Of a stretch of DNA of 64,000 nucleotides, positions 1,951 to 9,002 are shown in pieces (the first letter of the stretch is position 1; each line of letters begins with the position of its first letter). Where the stretch lies: assembly GCF_001306175.1 (NCBI RefSeq), contig NZ_LGKN01000003.1, forward strand, positions 930,001 through 994,000, read 5' to 3'. The notes beneath the pieces are model-generated. The model saw only the letters and a program-made list of their open reading frames with translations, had not been told where the DNA came from and made no database searches. Position numbers and translations under genes: made by a program. Origin of the DNA: Ardenticatena maritima. Its GTDB lineage: Bacteria > Chloroflexota > Anaerolineae > Ardenticatenales > Ardenticatenaceae.

Positions 1951-3126
1951 TCAAGGCGTTTTTCCCAACGCCTGGTCCAGGTCGGCGATGATGTCTTCCA
2001 CGTCCTCCAAGCCCACCGCCAGCCGAATCAGCCCATCGCTGACGCCGCCCGCACGGCGCACTTCGGGCGGGACATGCGCCAGCATCGTGCTCGCCGGGTG
2101 CGAGATGAGCGTATGCGTATCACCAAGGCTGGCGGCTTGTGTGCACAGGCGTACCCGGTCGAGCAGGTGCATACCCGCCTGCAAGCCCCCTTTGACTTCA
2201 AAGACCACCACACCGCCGCCGCCGCCCGGCATCTGCCGGCGGGCGAGGTCGTGCTGGGGGTGCGAGGGGTGCCACGGATACCGCACCCAGGCGACGCGGG
2301 GGTCTTCGGCGAGCCATTCGGCAAGGCGCAGGGCGTTTTCGTTGTGGCGTGCCACGCGCAACGGCAAGGTCTGCATGCCGCGCGCAATCAGCCAGGCGTT
2401 GAAAGGCGAAATGTTGCCGCCAAAGTGGCGCAGGGTCTCCTTGCGCGCCCGCTCGATGAAGTCGCGCGCGCCGACAATCACGCCGCCGAGCGCATCACCA
2501 TGTCCGCAAAAGTACTTCGTGGCGGAGTGCACCACGACGTCCACGCCCAGCGCCAGCGGCTTCTGGTTGATGGGCGTGGCAAAGGTGTTGTCAATCATGG
2601 TGAGAATGCCCCGCTCGCGTGCCAGCGCTGTGATGGCGGCAATGTCGTTGAGTTCCAACGCGGGGTTGTTGGGCGATTCAAGGTAAATGAGGCGCGTATC
2701 GGGACGCAAGGCAGATTCAAAGGCGCTCACGTCGGTGGCGGTGGCGAATGAAACCGCCACGCCGTAGCGCGGCAACGTTTCACGCAGGAAGTGCAGCGTC
2801 CCGCCGTAGAGCCCCGTGCTGGCGACCACGTGGTCGCCGGCTTGCACCGCAGTGAGCACGGCTGTGCTGACCGCCGCCATGCCGGACGCCGCCGCGAGCG
2901 CGGCTTCGCCGCCTTCAAGCGCCGCGACCTTGGCTTCGAGCTGGTTGATGGTGGGGTTGTTCCACCGTGTGTAGATGTAGCGGTCTTCGACTTCAAAGGC
3001 TTGGGCGGCTTCTTCCGCCGATGAAAACCGAAACGAGCTGGAAACATGAATGGGTGGCGCAACGTCGGCCACCCCTTCTTCTTCACCGGCATGAATGGCG
3101 GTTGTGTGAACACCCCACGTTGGCAT
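1951..3126 (-). CDS. Cys/Met metabolism PLP-dependent enzyme (cystathionine gamma-synthase/lyase family)
   Basis: A 391-residue member of the trans-sulfuration PLP family (fold type I), the usual length. The cofactor lysine lies in SATKY at residue 204, and YGGT near 107 and IDNTFATP near 178-185 are family motifs. Members include cystathionine gamma-synthase, cystathionine lyases, methionine gamma-lyase and O-acetylhomoserine sulfhydrylase; these are hard to separate by eye. The start at 3126 is set by AGGAG seven bases upstream. The gene follows the aldehyde oxidoreductase by 26 nt and shares the run with the SerA fusion, so a role in cysteine or methionine metabolism fed by serine or phosphoserine is possible (inference). 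Confidence 0.88.
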   Translation of the reverse strand: MPTWGVHTTAIHAGEEEGVADVAPPIHVSSSFRFSSAEEAAQAFEVEDRYIYTRWNNPTINQLEAKVAALEGGEAALAAASGMAAVSTAVLTAVQAGDHVVASTGLYGGTLHFLRETLPRYGVAVSFATATDVSAFESALRPDTRLIYLESPNNPALELNDIAAITALARERGILTMIDNTFATPINQKPLALGVDVVVHSATKYFCGHGDALGGVIVGARDFIERARKETLRHFGGNISPFNAWLIARGMQTLPLRVARHNENALRLAEWLAEDPRVAWVRYPWHPSHPQHDLARRQMPGGGGGVVVFEVKGGLQAGMHLLDRVRLCTQAASLGDTHTLISHPASTMLAHVPPEVRRAGGVSDGLIRLAVGLEDVEDIIADLDQALGKTP

Positions 3127-3152
3127 AGAAGGCTCCTTCTGGTGTTGGTTGG

Positions 3153-5048
3153 TCAAGGCAACCCTGGAATCCACTCCAAACCGAGCGCCGCCAGGGTTTC
3201 GGCGGTTGGGTAGCCGGTGCGCGTATCCCAACCCGCCATTTCGTAGTAAAGGTCTTTGGCTTGTTCAAGTTCTTCGGGGGTGATTTGCAAGCCGTTGTTG
3301 GGTTCGTCAGTGAGCATTTGGTGCAGGCGCTTCGTCAGTTTGTCGGCGTCGCGCCCAATGCCTTCACGCGCGTTGAACGCCCGCAACATGTTCAAGCGCC
3401 GCCGCCCCACGGTCATCAGTTCATCCAGCGTCACGTCCCAACCGGTCACGGCATTGACGTAGTCGGCAAGGTGTTCGGGACCGTAGAGTTGCCAGGCGGG
3501 TCCCCAGTCAAACTGGCACAAGCCCAACGTGTCGAGCGCCGAGTAGAAGTATTGCGTTTTGAGCGCAAATTCGACTTTTTCGCGGTTGAGCGCGTCGAGG
3601 TCTTGCGGGCTGGTCAAGCCCAGCATGGCGAGGCGTTCCAGGTCGCGCTTGCTGGATTTGGGCATGTACGAGGTATCGTGCTCGCTGGATTGGTGGTCGG
3701 CGCCGAAGGGGTTGACGGCGTAGATGAGCCCCAGACTGCGCTTGATTTGGGGCATGTGCGCGGGCGCTTCTTGCCCTTTCACCGTAATCAGAAAGGCGTC
3801 ACTGCCCCGCCCAATGCGCTGCGCCGCGCGCGCCGACCCTTCAGCAAGCAAATCGCCCAGCGTGCCGCGGCGGTGCGCCAATGCTTCCAGCGCCTGCAAC
3901 ATGGCGTCGGCGTTGCCAAAGCGCAGTTCGATGCCGTCGGTCTCTTCCAGCGTGAGCGCGCCATTCTCAAAGGCTTCCATTGCCCAGGCGATGGTCGCGC
4001 CGGCGGAGATGGTATCCAACCCATAGCGGTTGCAGAGTTCGTTGGCTTTGGCAATGGCTTTCAGGTCGCCCACTTCACAGTAAGAGCCGAATGTGGCAAT
4101 CGTTTCGTATTCGGGACCGCCGTACAAGCGGTCAACGGTGTACGGTCCCTCCTTGACTTCGACGACGCGCTTGCATTTGGTGGCGCAGGCATAGCAGGTG
4201 TCGCGGTCAACCAGGATGGTGTGGTACATGGTTTGGCCTGAAATCTCTTTCGCATGCTCGAAAACGCCGCGCGAATAGTTGCGCGTGGGCAAGCCGCCCA
4301 CGTAATTTTGCGCCTTGACCACAACCGAGGTGCCGTATTTGGCAAGCGCGCCGATGTTTTCCACGTGGTCGCGCCCCCAGCGTGAAAGTTCCAGCACGCG
4401 GTCTTTGTCGAACAGGGCGGGGCGCTGCTTGCCGCGCACGGCAATGGCTTTGAGGTTCTTGGAACCCATGACCGCGCCCATGCCTGTGCGCCCAAAAGCG
4501 CGGTTCGCCATGTTCATGATGGCGGCATAGCGCACCAGGTTTTCGCCGGCGGGACCAATCGCCGCCACTTCGATACGGTGGTCGCCCAGTTCTTCGCGAA
4601 TGCGCTGCATGGTTTCGCCCGTATCGAGCCCCCACAAGTGCGTGGCGTCACGGAGTTCAACGGCGCCGTCATGCAGCCAGAGATAGACCGGCTTGGGGGC
4701 GCGCCCGCGAATGACAATGGCGTCGAAGCCGGCAAATTTGAGTTCAGCCGGCCAGAAGCCGCCCGCCTGTGAATCGCCAATGCCGCCGGTGAGGGGGCTT
4801 TTGGCATTGGCGGTGGTGCGGCTCTGTCCGTGTACCGGTGTTCCAGTCAGCACGCTGTTGCTGAACGTCAACACGTTGTCGGGACCCAACGGGTCGGTGC
4901 CGGGCTTGACCTCGCGCAGGATGTACCAGAGCCCCAGCGCACTGCCCCCCATGTAGGTGCGATACACCGCCTCATTGGGGTGTTCGATATGGTATTCGCC
5001 GGTCGTCAGGTTGACGTGCAAAATCGTTCCGTGATATCCGTAGGGCAT
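3153..5048 (-). CDS. aor: Aldehyde:ferredoxin oxidoreductase (tungstopterin enzyme)
   Basis: A 631-residue protein, typical for AOR, which oxidises aldehydes to carboxylates with ferredoxin as electron acceptor using a tungsten bis-pyranopterin and one [4Fe-4S] cluster. The N-terminal domain shows the AOR pterin-binding features (residues 1-210, including GGSALG near 34, AKSPLTGG near 82 and GRTGMGAVMGSKNLKA near 188). The cluster cysteines appear as DTCYACATKC near 285-294, and the distal fourth cysteine is in LGLCQFD near 510. The start follows GGAGG with good spacing. A Cys-rich gene of unknown role lies 21 nt upstream. Which aldehyde is used cannot be told; FOR, GOR and WOR are paralogues. 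Confidence 0.9.
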   Translation of the reverse strand: MPYGYHGTILHVNLTTGEYHIEHPNEAVYRTYMGGSALGLWYILREVKPGTDPLGPDNVLTFSNSVLTGTPVHGQSRTTANAKSPLTGGIGDSQAGGFWPAELKFAGFDAIVIRGRAPKPVYLWLHDGAVELRDATHLWGLDTGETMQRIREELGDHRIEVAAIGPAGENLVRYAAIMNMANRAFGRTGMGAVMGSKNLKAIAVRGKQRPALFDKDRVLELSRWGRDHVENIGALAKYGTSVVVKAQNYVGGLPTRNYSRGVFEHAKEISGQTMYHTILVDRDTCYACATKCKRVVEVKEGPYTVDRLYGGPEYETIATFGSYCEVGDLKAIAKANELCNRYGLDTISAGATIAWAMEAFENGALTLEETDGIELRFGNADAMLQALEALAHRRGTLGDLLAEGSARAAQRIGRGSDAFLITVKGQEAPAHMPQIKRSLGLIYAVNPFGADHQSSEHDTSYMPKSSKRDLERLAMLGLTSPQDLDALNREKVEFALKTQYFYSALDTLGLCQFDWGPAWQLYGPEHLADYVNAVTGWDVTLDELMTVGRRRLNMLRAFNAREGIGRDADKLTKRLHQMLTDEPNNGLQITPEELEQAKDLYYEMAGWDTRTGYPTAETLAALGLEWIPGLP

Positions 5049-5069: not shown

Positions 5070-5972
5070 TCAGATTGTGGACACATGTGTTCGGGGTTCG
5101 ATACGGCGGCCTTCTTGATACAAGAACTGCCCAAAGTGGGCAAACCAACGGTGCGCCTGACAATCGCATGTGTGGTTGTGGGGCGTCGCACATGAGCGCC
5201 ACATTCGCACCGCCACGTTCGCCAGTGAAGGGGGGATGACGTAGAGACGGGCGGCTTCTTGGGGCGCTGTTTCGACGAGCGCTTCATTCCAGGTGTCGAA
5301 AAAGGTTGTTTCGCAGTGGGTGCAGTGGAAGAGCGTGCAGACGACAGCCGTTTGCCCACCGCCGCACGTCAAACGAGCGTCCACCACGGTGTGCACGCCA
5401 CACGTTGGGCACCGTGGTCCTACATGCGAAAAGGGTTCTTCGGCGGGGGCGGGCGACTGCCAGAGACGCTTGACCCACTGCCAGAACCGTTGCCAAAGCG
5501 AGGCGTGAGGCGCGTCCGAGGCTTGAATGGCGATGGTGGCTTCGGTATCCGCGCGTGTAGACGCCGAGGCGGCAATCGGCTCATCGGCGGGCACAATCTC
5601 CATGGGCGTCTCGCGAAACATGAAGCGATGACAGGCGGGGGCGAGGAGCGCGCGCGGCGTGGGGATGTAGACGGGGTCTTCCGGTTCGCCCCACGTGCAG
5701 ACGCCTTTCCAGTTGTCGGGGGCGTCATCGAAAGGGCGGCGGAAGTGGACACACGCCCCGCACACCAGCGGACGCCACCCGTGCTCCGCCAACTGCGCCG
5801 TCAACGCTTCAAAGTGGTCGAAGGGGGAAGCCGAAGCGTGCGGCGAGACGACGCTAACGTCAGCCACTTCGGCTTCCCACGGTGCTTGTTGACGCACGCG
5901 AACCGCGCCGATTTGCTCGGTTGTTTCACGAGCAAAGGCGACTGTGTAGGTTTCGACGCGCCAAAACGCCAT
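5070..5972 (-). CDS. Cys-rich protein of unknown function, upstream of aldehyde:ferredoxin oxidoreductase
   Basis: A 300-residue protein I do not recognise. Three parts can be seen. Residues about 1-125 end in a spaced cysteine set (CGAC, then GVCTW, then ACHRF) that could hold a metal or Fe-S cluster. Residues about 130-185 form an Ala/Ser/Pro-rich linker with WQRFWQWVKRLWQ. The C-terminal part has a zinc-ribbon-like pair (CPTCG and FHCTHC about 27 residues apart) and further cysteines (SCATPHNHTCDC). No signal peptide or membrane segment is seen. It sits 21 nt from both serA and aor, so it is probably cotranscribed with them; a partner or maturation role for AOR is speculation. Confidence 0.7.
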   Translation of the reverse strand: MAFWRVETYTVAFARETTEQIGAVRVRQQAPWEAEVADVSVVSPHASASPFDHFEALTAQLAEHGWRPLVCGACVHFRRPFDDAPDNWKGVCTWGEPEDPVYIPTPRALLAPACHRFMFRETPMEIVPADEPIAASASTRADTEATIAIQASDAPHASLWQRFWQWVKRLWQSPAPAEEPFSHVGPRCPTCGVHTVVDARLTCGGGQTAVVCTLFHCTHCETTFFDTWNEALVETAPQEAARLYVIPPSLANVAVRMWRSCATPHNHTCDCQAHRWFAHFGQFLYQEGRRIEPRTHVSTI

Positions 5973-5993
5973 GCTTCATCCTTTCATGGGCGT

Positions 5994-7751
5994 TCAATCT
6001 TCCAGCAAAATCACCGGTTCCTGGTAGTAGCGCACACGACGGCGCTCCAATTTTTCGCGCACGAACTGGTCGAGCCAGCGGCGTTTGGCGGGCAAGGGTT
6101 CATCGCTCCGCAATACGTCAAGCGGGACGTTGAGGCGCAAGACGCGCCCCGGAATCACAAAGCGCGTAATGCCCTGCGGCAAGCGCCGCCCACGCCCGGC
6201 AATCGCCAGCACTTCATCAGGTGTAAACTGCGGGAAGATAACCAGGGCGACCGCTTCGGGATAGGTGCGCGTGAGCGTGTTCATGTCCGTGGTCAACGTG
6301 CGGTCAACTTCGCCCCAGTCGGTGTAGGCTTCGACCATGGCGTTGAGCACGTCGAGCGCGTCGCTGGTTTCGTCCGCCAGGCGTGCCAGCAAGTGGCGCC
6401 CATCACGCAACACCAGGTAGGCAAGCGCCTGGCGCTCACGCAGGGCGCTTTCGGCGGTGGCTTTGTCCGCCACCGGTTCCAGCACCAAGCCGGGAACGCG
6501 CTGAATGGTGTCGAGGAACGCTTCGGCAGACGGTCCGCTCACCACATGATACCAGGTGTGCAACGCCACGTCGGCGCGGTTGGGGTCCACCACTTGCACG
6601 ACGATGTGCGGAATGCCCAGTTCTTTGAGCGCGGTGGTGCGGGTCGCGCCGTCAAGCACGATGTATTTGTCTTGCCAGGCGGCCACGACGGGCGGGTTGG
6701 CAAGGCGGCCGTCGGCTTCGATAGCGCGCGCCAGACGTTCAACGCGCTTGGGGTCAACGCCTTCATGCGGCACGACCTTGCTCAGTTCGACCATTTGCAG
6801 GGAAAGCGTTTCGGCGACGCTCCCCGTACCGCCCAAAAATTCGATGATTTTCTCGGCGATTTCGATGGCGGCGTTCTTTTGGGCTTCGACGGTGCTGGCG
6901 CCAATGTGGGGGGTCGCCACCACTTTGGGATGTTTTGCCAGCGGGTGGTCAAGCGCCGGCTCTTCCTTGAAGACGTCAATCCCCGCGCCGGCAATACGCC
7001 CCTCATTCAGGGCTTCGAGCAACGCCTCTTCGTTGACGATACCGCCGCGTGCTGTGTTGATCAGGTAGGCGGTGGGCTTCATCAAGGCGAGTTCTTCACG
7101 GTCAATCAGGTTTTCGTTTTCAGGCCGCCAGGGCACATGCAGGCTGACGAAGTCGCTTTCGCGCAACAGGTCGGGCAGATCAACCGGCGTCACGCCGGCT
7201 TCAAGCGCCAGTTCGGGCGTCAGCCGCGGCTGGTTGACCAGGACACGCATTCCCAGCGCTTTGGCGCGCTTTGCCACCTGGCGACCAATCCGCCCAAAGC
7301 CGATGATGCCCAGCGTCTTCCCATCCAGCGATGTGCCCTTGAAGCGCTTTTTCTCCCAGCGCCCTTCTTTCATGCTGTGGTCGGCGGCGGGAATGTGGCG
7401 CGCCAACGCCAGCATAAGCCCGATGGTGTGTTCGGCGACGGCGACGCTGTTTGCGCCGGGGCAGTTCAGCACTTCCACCCCCAGCGCGCGCGCGGTGCTC
7501 ACGTCAATGTTGTCGAGGCCGGTGCCGGCACGCCCAATCACACGCAGCCGACGGCCGGCCTCGATAATGCGCGATGTAACGCGCGTTGCGCTCCGCACGA
7601 TCAGGGCTTCGTAGTTGGGAATGATGGCTTCCAGTTCTTCGGGCGTCAGCCCTTCGCGCACGTCCACGTCAAAGTACTGGCGCAACAGTTCCACGCCTTC
7701 TTCGGCGATTGGATCGGCTATCAAAACACGCGGGCGTCTTTGCTCGCTCAT
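5994..7751 (-). CDS. serA: Phosphoglycerate dehydrogenase (SerA) fused to SbnI/SerK-like ParB-fold serine kinase module
   Basis: A 585-residue two-part protein. Residues 1-315 are a D-3-phosphoglycerate dehydrogenase: Rossmann motif GFGRIG 151-156, catalytic Arg in NTARGG (R235), Glu in FKEEP (E263/E264) and His in PHIG (H282). The position after the second Rossmann strand reads VNQP (residues 172-175) where NAD-specific PGDHs usually have an Asp. There is no ACT domain. Residues 318-585 instead form a ParB/sulfiredoxin-fold module: PHE at 328-330, an ERLARAIEADG helix, NPPVV, and LDGATR at 366-371, resembling SbnI and SerK, which phosphorylate free serine to O-phosphoserine. Its length (268) is near that of whole SbnI. 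An aminotransferase gene lies 48 nt upstream. The fusion is seen; kinase activity is inferred. Confidence 0.85.
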   Translation of the reverse strand: MSEQRRPRVLIADPIAEEGVELLRQYFDVDVREGLTPEELEAIIPNYEALIVRSATRVTSRIIEAGRRLRVIGRAGTGLDNIDVSTARALGVEVLNCPGANSVAVAEHTIGLMLALARHIPAADHSMKEGRWEKKRFKGTSLDGKTLGIIGFGRIGRQVAKRAKALGMRVLVNQPRLTPELALEAGVTPVDLPDLLRESDFVSLHVPWRPENENLIDREELALMKPTAYLINTARGGIVNEEALLEALNEGRIAGAGIDVFKEEPALDHPLAKHPKVVATPHIGASTVEAQKNAAIEIAEKIIEFLGGTGSVAETLSLQMVELSKVVPHEGVDPKRVERLARAIEADGRLANPPVVAAWQDKYIVLDGATRTTALKELGIPHIVVQVVDPNRADVALHTWYHVVSGPSAEAFLDTIQRVPGLVLEPVADKATAESALRERQALAYLVLRDGRHLLARLADETSDALDVLNAMVEAYTDWGEVDRTLTTDMNTLTRTYPEAVALVIFPQFTPDEVLAIAGRGRRLPQGITRFVIPGRVLRLNVPLDVLRSDEPLPAKRRWLDQFVREKLERRRVRYYQEPVILLED

Positions 7752-7799
7752 GCAACCTCCTTGTTCTGGCGTTATGCGATTGAAGGGATGGGTGTTGTT

Positions 7800-8915
7800 T
7801 CAGCCACCCAGGAACTCGTCAATCGTTTCTAACAGGTACTGCATTTCTTCGCGCGTTGTATCCCCCATGTGGGCGATGCGGAAGGTCTTGTTTTTCAAAT
7901 CGCCATACCCGTTGGAGATGACCATACCGCGCGATTTCAAGAATGTGTTGAGCGCGCCCACGTCAATGCCGCGCGTGTTGGCAACGGTTGTCACCGTGGG
8001 CGAGCGATAGCCCTCCGCAGCGAACAAGCCAAACCCCCGCGACAACGCCCATTCGCGGGTCATTTCGGCCAGTTCGGCATGGCGGGCGTAGCGGTTGGCG
8101 GGTCCTTCTTCATCGAGAATGTAGGTGAGTTGAACATGCAAGGCGCGCAACAGGGAAATCGCCGGCGTTGAGGGGGTGGTGTTGCGTTGCAGGTACTTTT
8201 CGAGCAACAGGTAGTCGAAGTACCAGCCGCGCCCTTCAATGGTCTTGGCGCGTTCCAACACACGGTCGCTCACCGCCGCCAACGCCAAGCCCGGCGGGCA
8301 GGCAAGGGCTTTTTGCGACGACGTGAGGCAGACATCGAGCCCCCATTCGTCGAAGGGAATGCGCGTACCGGCAAAGGAACTGACCGCGTCCACGAAAATG
8401 AAAGTGTCAGGAGCAATCTCCCGCACGACGGCGGCAATCTCGCCGACGGGGCTGAGCACGCCCGTGCTGGTTTCGTTGTGGACCACGGTGATGGCGTCGG
8501 CGGGTCCATGTGTGCGCAGGGCGTCGGCTACCAGGTCGGGGGTAATGGCTTGCCCCCATTCCACATCAACGCGGGTCACTCGCTTGCCGCAGCCTGCCGC
8601 CACCTCCGACCAGCGCTTGCTGAACGCCCCATTGACGAAACAAATCACGTGGTCGCGCACCCCGTTGCGGATGGCGGCTTCTTGTTGCCCCATACCGGAC
8701 GACGCGGTGACGAAGACGCGGTACTTTGTTTCATAGAGACGGCGCAATTGCGCCTGAATGGCTGCGAAGAGGTCTTCCAGGTCTTTGGTGCGGTGCCCAA
8801 TCATCAATTCGGCTTGGGCTTGCAAGACCTCCGGGCGCACTTCTGTGGGTCCCGGAATGAACAAGCGGGGGTACGGACGTTTTGACCAGCCAAAGGGATC
8901 TTTGGGTTGTGTCAT
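7800..8915 (-). CDS. Class V aminotransferase (serine/alanine-glyoxylate or phosphoserine aminotransferase-like)
   Basis: A 371-residue PLP aminotransferase of the small class V fold. It begins with RLFIPGPTEV, the usual opening of serine-glyoxylate/alanine-glyoxylate enzymes. FVDAVSSF (residues 174-181, PLP-nitrogen Asp) and SSQKALACPPGL (K202, Schiff base) are clear. The start at 8915 is preceded by GAGGTG; a longer frame to 8996 has no such site. Position directly upstream of the serA fusion suggests it makes phosphoserine from 3-phosphohydroxypyruvate, the SerC step, although the family also covers serine-glyoxylate transamination. That assignment is from context, not from substrate residues. 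Confidence 0.87.
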   Translation of the reverse strand: MTQPKDPFGWSKRPYPRLFIPGPTEVRPEVLQAQAELMIGHRTKDLEDLFAAIQAQLRRLYETKYRVFVTASSGMGQQEAAIRNGVRDHVICFVNGAFSKRWSEVAAGCGKRVTRVDVEWGQAITPDLVADALRTHGPADAITVVHNETSTGVLSPVGEIAAVVREIAPDTFIFVDAVSSFAGTRIPFDEWGLDVCLTSSQKALACPPGLALAAVSDRVLERAKTIEGRGWYFDYLLLEKYLQRNTTPSTPAISLLRALHVQLTYILDEEGPANRYARHAELAEMTREWALSRGFGLFAAEGYRSPTVTTVANTRGIDVGALNTFLKSRGMVISNGYGDLKNKTFRIAHMGDTTREEMQYLLETIDEFLGG

Positions 8916-9002
8916 AGGTTTCACCTCGCGATGGTTCGCTGGTTGATTGTCAAGGCAAAGCGGGCAAAAGATACAACGAGTAGGCTGAAAGAGCAACGTG
9001 TA

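Follow-up and report, generated by a model that had tools for sequence, protein, structure and literature searches.

The minus-strand reading frame at positions 5994-7751 of the window (the 64,000-nucleotide stretch of DNA analysed here, from the heat-loving Chloroflexota bacterium Ardenticatena maritima) joins a phosphoglycerate dehydrogenase (PGDH, SerA) to a domain with the SbnI/SerK fold. We consider it probable, at roughly 60%, that this protein is a bifunctional, two-entry producer of O-phosphoserine (OPS) in which SerK stands in for the serine acetyltransferase CysE. The C-terminal half would be a free-serine kinase of the SbnI/SerK kind that converts serine and an NTP or NDP to OPS, and the N-terminal half would, together with the neighbouring aminotransferase, make OPS from 3-phosphoglycerate. 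OPS would then be the activated serine for PLP-dependent beta-replacement enzymes, namely, TrpB2 and a cysteine synthase or CBS-type enzyme that accepts OPS, with phosphorylation of serine taking the place of its acetylation by CysE.

One reading frame with two domains

The fusion is a single uninterrupted, ATG-started frame of 585 aa, with homologous fused frames in relatives, and consists of a complete PGDH core (residues ~1-314) that continues into a full-length SbnI/SerK-fold domain (residues 317-585). This is the layout that the original prediction had read from the sequence. The class-V aminotransferase gene that the prediction had placed beside it is on the minus strand as well, 48 bp upstream of the fusion (7800-8996), is a candidate phosphoserine aminotransferase by profile match, and is retained next to the fusion in L071, L072, L073, L075, and L078. 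Directly 3' of the fusion, on the same strand, are the genes for a 300-aa protein with paired cysteines (5070-5972) and for what we take, from reading the sequence, to be an aldehyde:ferredoxin-oxidoreductase-like protein (3153-5048), a pair retained at this position within the family (L032, L033, and L036). Farther downstream on the minus strand is presumably a trans-sulfuration-family PLP enzyme (1951-3231, also assigned by reading the sequence), and the order is the same in L032/L071. An 857-aa antisense frame (5259-7832, plus strand) spans the entire fusion and most likely results from the GC-rich codon usage; comparable antisense frames cover the fusion in relatives as well.

Residues 8-320 match the PGDH profile TIGR01327 (E = 1e-119), and because the match stops at profile position 314 of 525, having begun at position 1, the ASB/ACT part is absent. 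The score of 400.7 bits is correspondingly below the 454 bits set for full-length proteins with ASB/ACT. No ACT domain was matched anywhere in the fusion by profile searches, and it is the SbnI/SerK fold that occupies the C-terminal region; the proposal that such a module replaces the ACT domain agrees with both structure and residue mapping. In the SerA domain (residues 1-313, 6813-7751), the NAD motif G151xG153xxG156 and the catalytic triad R235, E264, and H282 are all intact. This half superposes on the PGDH of P. horikoshii (1wwk) over 303 columns with an rmsd of 1.3 and 52% identity, and the AlphaFold2 model of the whole fusion has a pLDDT of 89.9. Compared with L071, dN/dS was 0.012 for SerA and 0.081 for SerK, ratios that are rough since dS is high. 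The SerA half of the Ardenticatena fusion is intact and under very strong constraint. The genome (3.56 Mb, 98.6% complete) also encodes a second, conventional full-length PGDH with the ASB/ACT region (L160:7337-9007, G000:C5), and the idea that the fusion is its sole SerA was therefore rejected.

The C-terminal 270 aa (residues 317-584; domain coordinates 5997-6803) match the NCBIfam SbnI model end to end (E = 1.3e-32, model positions 7-253 of 254) and the archaeal SerK profile with an E value of 2e-15, and a search of PDB sequences returned SbnI (6e-21) and SerK (3e-9). The equivalog cut-offs (NF033589 and NF053625) were not reached, with 113.2 of 350 bits for SbnI and 56.5 of 380 bits for SerK, and because these scores are so far below the cut-offs, the domain is a relative and not a member of either curated equivalog. 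Pfam ParB_N was also sub-threshold (18.2 of 26.3 bits), and profile searching found no ParB HTH in the fusion, which thus does not qualify as a ParB partition protein; a separate true ParB is encoded elsewhere in the genome (122.5 bits). The AlphaFold2 model of the domain (pLDDT of 94.6, pTM of 0.89) was matched by Foldseek to SbnI (4e-20) and SerK (2e-18), with VIA Z scores of 23.2 and 22.9, respectively, compared to at most 8.4 for other ParB- or sulfiredoxin-fold proteins, and the expected structural likeness was thus borne out.

The motifs singled out in the original prediction, PHE at residues 328-330 and LDGATR at residues 366-371, are found at those positions. H329-E330 (6762-6767) contains the equivalent of the catalytic Glu (E330; SerK E30, SbnI E20), and the LDGATR loop (6639-6656) contains D367 (SerK D69, SbnI D58) and R371 (SerK R73, SbnI R62). 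In W400-Y-H402 (6546-6554), W400 corresponds to SerK W102 and SbnI W89 and H402 to SbnI H91, and T529 and R530 correspond to SerK T223 and R224 and to SbnI T201-R202. Most of the nucleotide-site residues examined are thus kept (E330, D367, R371, and W400), but the nucleotide loop D-G-x-H-R, which retains D367, G368, and R371, has T370 in place of the active-site His (SbnI H61, SerK H72). Position 370 is Thr in all fusions, and standalone relatives have Thr or Asn there in most cases. The residues H402, R484, R536, R574, Y576, and E578 are common to the fusion and SbnI but not SerK, which places the module nearer to SbnI than to archaeal SerK. On the basis of the model and the residue mapping, we predict that the domain is an SbnI/SerK-type kinase of free serine.

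Conservation, distribution, and origin of the fusion

Conservation was counted in the 57 full-length fusions among the matches listed. H329, E330, W400, H402, R484, R530, R536, and R574 are invariant in all 57, and so are D367, G368, and R371, although for these three this is partly an effect of the search pattern. The SerA triad (R235/E264/H282), in contrast, is intact in fewer than half of the 57, while the NAD glycines G151 and G153 are present in every one, even where the triad is lost. At least five changes between an intact and a lost triad are required by the SerK tree, and the frames of L095, L102, L104, L106, L115, and L127 are without any SerA part. Since the SerK residues never vary while the SerA triad is often lost, the kinase is the constant part of the fusion, and the dehydrogenase probably stays active in some lineages only, Ardenticatena among them. 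Two operons (L103:3083-7037 and L042:3494-7409) have the order aminotransferase, separate SerA, and SerA with a broken triad fused to SerK, such that a free SerA adjoins a fusion whose own SerA is dead.

The SerK domain was present in 35 of 99 relatives. A scan of contigs, with a search pattern that partly enforced D367, G368, and R371, gave 284 encoding loci, many of them in MAGs, of which the best 80 were retained. At least 63 frames have SerA ahead of SerK, including that of the window (that is, at least 62 further loci), mostly in Chloroflexota, and the other SerK genes are standalone. The nearest named locus among the matches listed is that of Ardenticatena sp. S012_161, with 89% identity in the kinase domain. 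No report of a SerA-SerK fusion, or of a ParB-fold domain joined to PGDH, was found in the open-access literature searched.

The SerA domains of the fusions fall into a single clade (SH-aLRT of 99), which excludes the conventional SerA of Ardenticatena. The sister of this clade consists of unfused SerA proteins encoded in four TrpB2-AT-SerA-SerK operons (AT, aminotransferase; support of 96). In the tree of SerK domains, a group with moderate support (82) unites the fused forms with a few SerA-less descendants and is separate from a standalone clade (87); both trees were made by a quick method and include long branches. The simplest history that these trees suggest is a single fusion of adjacent serA and serK genes in a TrpB2-AT-SerA-SerK operon, followed by repeated decay or loss of serA, with the kinase always kept.

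At least 15 proteins of ~910 aa are triple fusions with a third, N-terminal domain (L076, L077, L080, L081, L083, L085, L088 to L091, L093, L094, L096, L100, and L101), in the order fold-type-II PLP enzyme, SerA with a broken triad, and SerK. In the one protein tested, the N-terminal domain belonged to the threo-3-hydroxyaspartate ammonia-lyase/threonine dehydratase family. SerA::SerK fusions or their remnants were also seen in MAGs labelled Delta- or Gammaproteobacteria, Desulfobacteraceae, and Acidimicrobiia (L130, L131, L138, L142, L143, and L148), which may reflect transfer or misbinning.

Serine activation and competing explanations

CysE was found over its cut-off in 6 of the 35 relatives with SerK and in 40 of the 64 without (p = 1.7e-5), a test in which, as in the other co-occurrence tests here, ancestry is corrected for only roughly. 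The anti-correlation was also seen in high-quality genomes (p = 1.5e-4) and with a wider definition of CysE and each family represented by a single genome (median p = 0.025). Of 10 genomes with the fusion, none had a CysE over the cut-off, and no CysE was found in the Ardenticatena genome by profile search. A phylum-wide sample, which partly overlaps with the relatives, gave CysE in 3 of 17 genomes with SerK and in 141 of 234 without it (p = 7e-4). The replacement is not strict, since under the wider definition, nine SerK genomes keep CysE and 20 genomes have neither gene.

At least 11 loci have the order TrpB2-SerK or TrpB2-AT-SerA-SerK (L125, L129, L137, L145, L146, L147, L149, L150, G004, G011, and G044), and a CBS-type gene lies next to SerK in L140 and G042. 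The CBS-type gene and the standalone SerK of G042 overlap by ~1 base (L049:7013-9372) and are an obvious single transcription unit. Co-occurrence with TrpB2 was discarded as a test of an OPS role because nearly every member of the class has TrpB2 and the test is uninformative, so that operon adjacency alone carries weight for the TrpB2 link. TrpB2 enzymes are described as OPS dependent (Busch 2014, as cited in PMC11917138), and SbnI supplies OPS to SbnA (PMC7139808). The Ardenticatena genome encodes TrpB2 (L161:7729-9183), a CBS-type enzyme (L054), and a CysM-type enzyme (L163:7260-8246) adjoining MoeB/ThiF, which may be the users of OPS. The CysE anti-correlation, the TrpB2 and CBS neighbours, and the SbnI-SbnA precedent together indicate that the reaction would run forward, from serine to OPS. 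The original prediction had offered feedback sensing of serine, supply of phosphoserine for cysteine synthesis, or a reversed kinase as possible meanings of the fusion, and of these, the supply of phosphoserine fits best, with CysE anti-correlated and OPS-using enzyme types adjoining. Arguing against OPS production are the scores far below the equivalog cut-offs and the Thr in place of the His of the SerK loop; in addition, SerA and the aminotransferase already yield OPS, so that SerK seems superfluous next to an intact SerA.

The same gene set could serve the assimilation of serine, with SerK, the aminotransferase, and SerA running from serine through OPS and phosphohydroxypyruvate to 3-phosphoglycerate and so supplying serine carbon to central metabolism; such a pathway has been put forward for Thermococcales and Desulfurococcales. 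At equilibrium, the PGDH reaction lies on the side of 3-phosphoglycerate, which suits this direction, and the second, conventional SerA of Ardenticatena would be available for synthesis. In Desulfurococcales, serK adjoins PGDH and aminotransferase genes, the set found here as AT-SerA::SerK, and ΔserK and ΔserA strains of T. kodakarensis lose some of their yield (PMC5120207). Assimilation is possible where SerA is intact, but it leaves unexplained why SerA catalysis, or the whole of SerA, was lost in many lineages that keep SerK, why TrpB2 and CBS genes are neighbours where there is no SerA, and why CysE is anti-correlated, and we regard it as unlikely.

It is distinctly unlikely that the domain is a regulatory module which binds serine or a nucleotide to control the dehydrogenase as an ACT replacement, with the NAD-binding half controlling the kinase in relatives with a dead SerA. 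The position of the domain is that usually taken by ACT, the retention of G151 and G153 in all fusions despite loss of the triad would fit, and a SerK-like protein has been found to bind CTP in a fold that is also used without catalysis (PNAS 2025, PMC12704722). However, sensing does not account for the invariance of every mapped catalytic kinase residue, and it is difficult to reconcile with the survival of SerK alone after SerA loss and with the tendency of SerK genomes to be without CysE.

A SerK running in reverse, from OPS and an NDP or NMP to serine and an NTP or NDP, was suggested as a replacement for phosphoserine phosphatase, and in the family of the window there is indeed no full-length SerB-like HAD match, the best match of Ardenticatena itself, within a frame of 927 aa, covering no more than model positions 90-217. 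This role is very improbable. SerB-like genes are more common with SerK (18 of 35 genomes) than without it (13 of 64; odds ratio of 4.2, p = 0.003), so that replacement of SerB by SerK was rejected as a general rule, and a phosphomonoester would have to pass its phosphoryl group to a nucleotide, which is thermodynamically uphill. The genome also encodes a histidine phosphatase (L067, G000:C3:63949-64509) whose best-matching family is that of the phosphoserine phosphatase PspA (E = 1e-50, short of the equivalog cut-off) and which is a candidate for the missing SerB. The chance that an annotation or assembly artefact, such as a sequencing error, joined two genes is negligible because the same fused frame occurs in independent genomes, at identical length (585 aa) in an independent Ardenticatena MAG (L071) and in dozens of others, and because dN/dS against L071 is well below 1 in both halves.

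Returning to OPS production, we tentatively extend it, at somewhat less than even odds, to a route, widespread in bacteria, that would activate serine by phosphorylating rather than acetylating it. A serine-kinase clade of Chloroflexota would replace CysE and feed OPS to PLP enzymes that form cysteine and tryptophan. It comes packed as SerA::SerK and, within one sub-clade, as a triple fusion (dehydratase::pseudo-SerA::SerK) whose inactive dehydrogenase would be kept to bind NAD and to regulate the kinase or serve as its scaffold. If this is true, with several hundred Chloroflexota relatives that are often without CysE, a major phylum would use phosphoserine as a mainstream form of activated serine, and the gap in the cysteine pathway would be filled in many cysE-less genomes. 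The repeated death of SerA with the NAD motif kept is a natural series on what pseudoenzymes do for an attached kinase, and the fusion lets the idea be probed with one purified protein.

Comparison with known systems

SbnI was found later than SerK, in staphylococcal siderophore synthesis. The 2016 paper on SerK had reported no clear-cut bacterial homologues of the enzyme, which it linked to hyperthermophilic archaea. PGDHs known so far either stop at the end of the core or bear ASB/ACT, whereas the fusion continues into a kinase-fold domain; its SerA half, with a complete catalytic triad, superposes on the core of the short-type enzyme of P. horikoshii. The ParB-CTPase-fold fusions reported in PNAS in 2025 likewise join a ParB/Srx-fold domain to another domain, but the main text of that paper makes no mention of a dehydrogenase partner (PMC12704722).

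The ADP-dependent serine kinase SerK of Thermococcus kodakarensis (5x0b and others) shares the fold and the core active-site residues with the fusion domain. It stands alone, however, has no C-terminal RxYxE segment, is missing several of the residues shared with SbnI, and carries His72 where the fusion has Thr. The closest characterised relative is SbnI of Staphylococcus (6nr6, 5ujd, and 5uje), which matches over its full length with 27% identity. SbnI is a standalone free-serine kinase for staphyloferrin B that binds DNA and heme as well (PMC7139808). The fusion domain differs from it in being joined to SerA, in having Thr for His61, and in scoring far under the NCBIfam cut-off, and the two have in common H329, E330, D367, R371, W400, H402, R484, R530, R536, R574, Y576, and E578.
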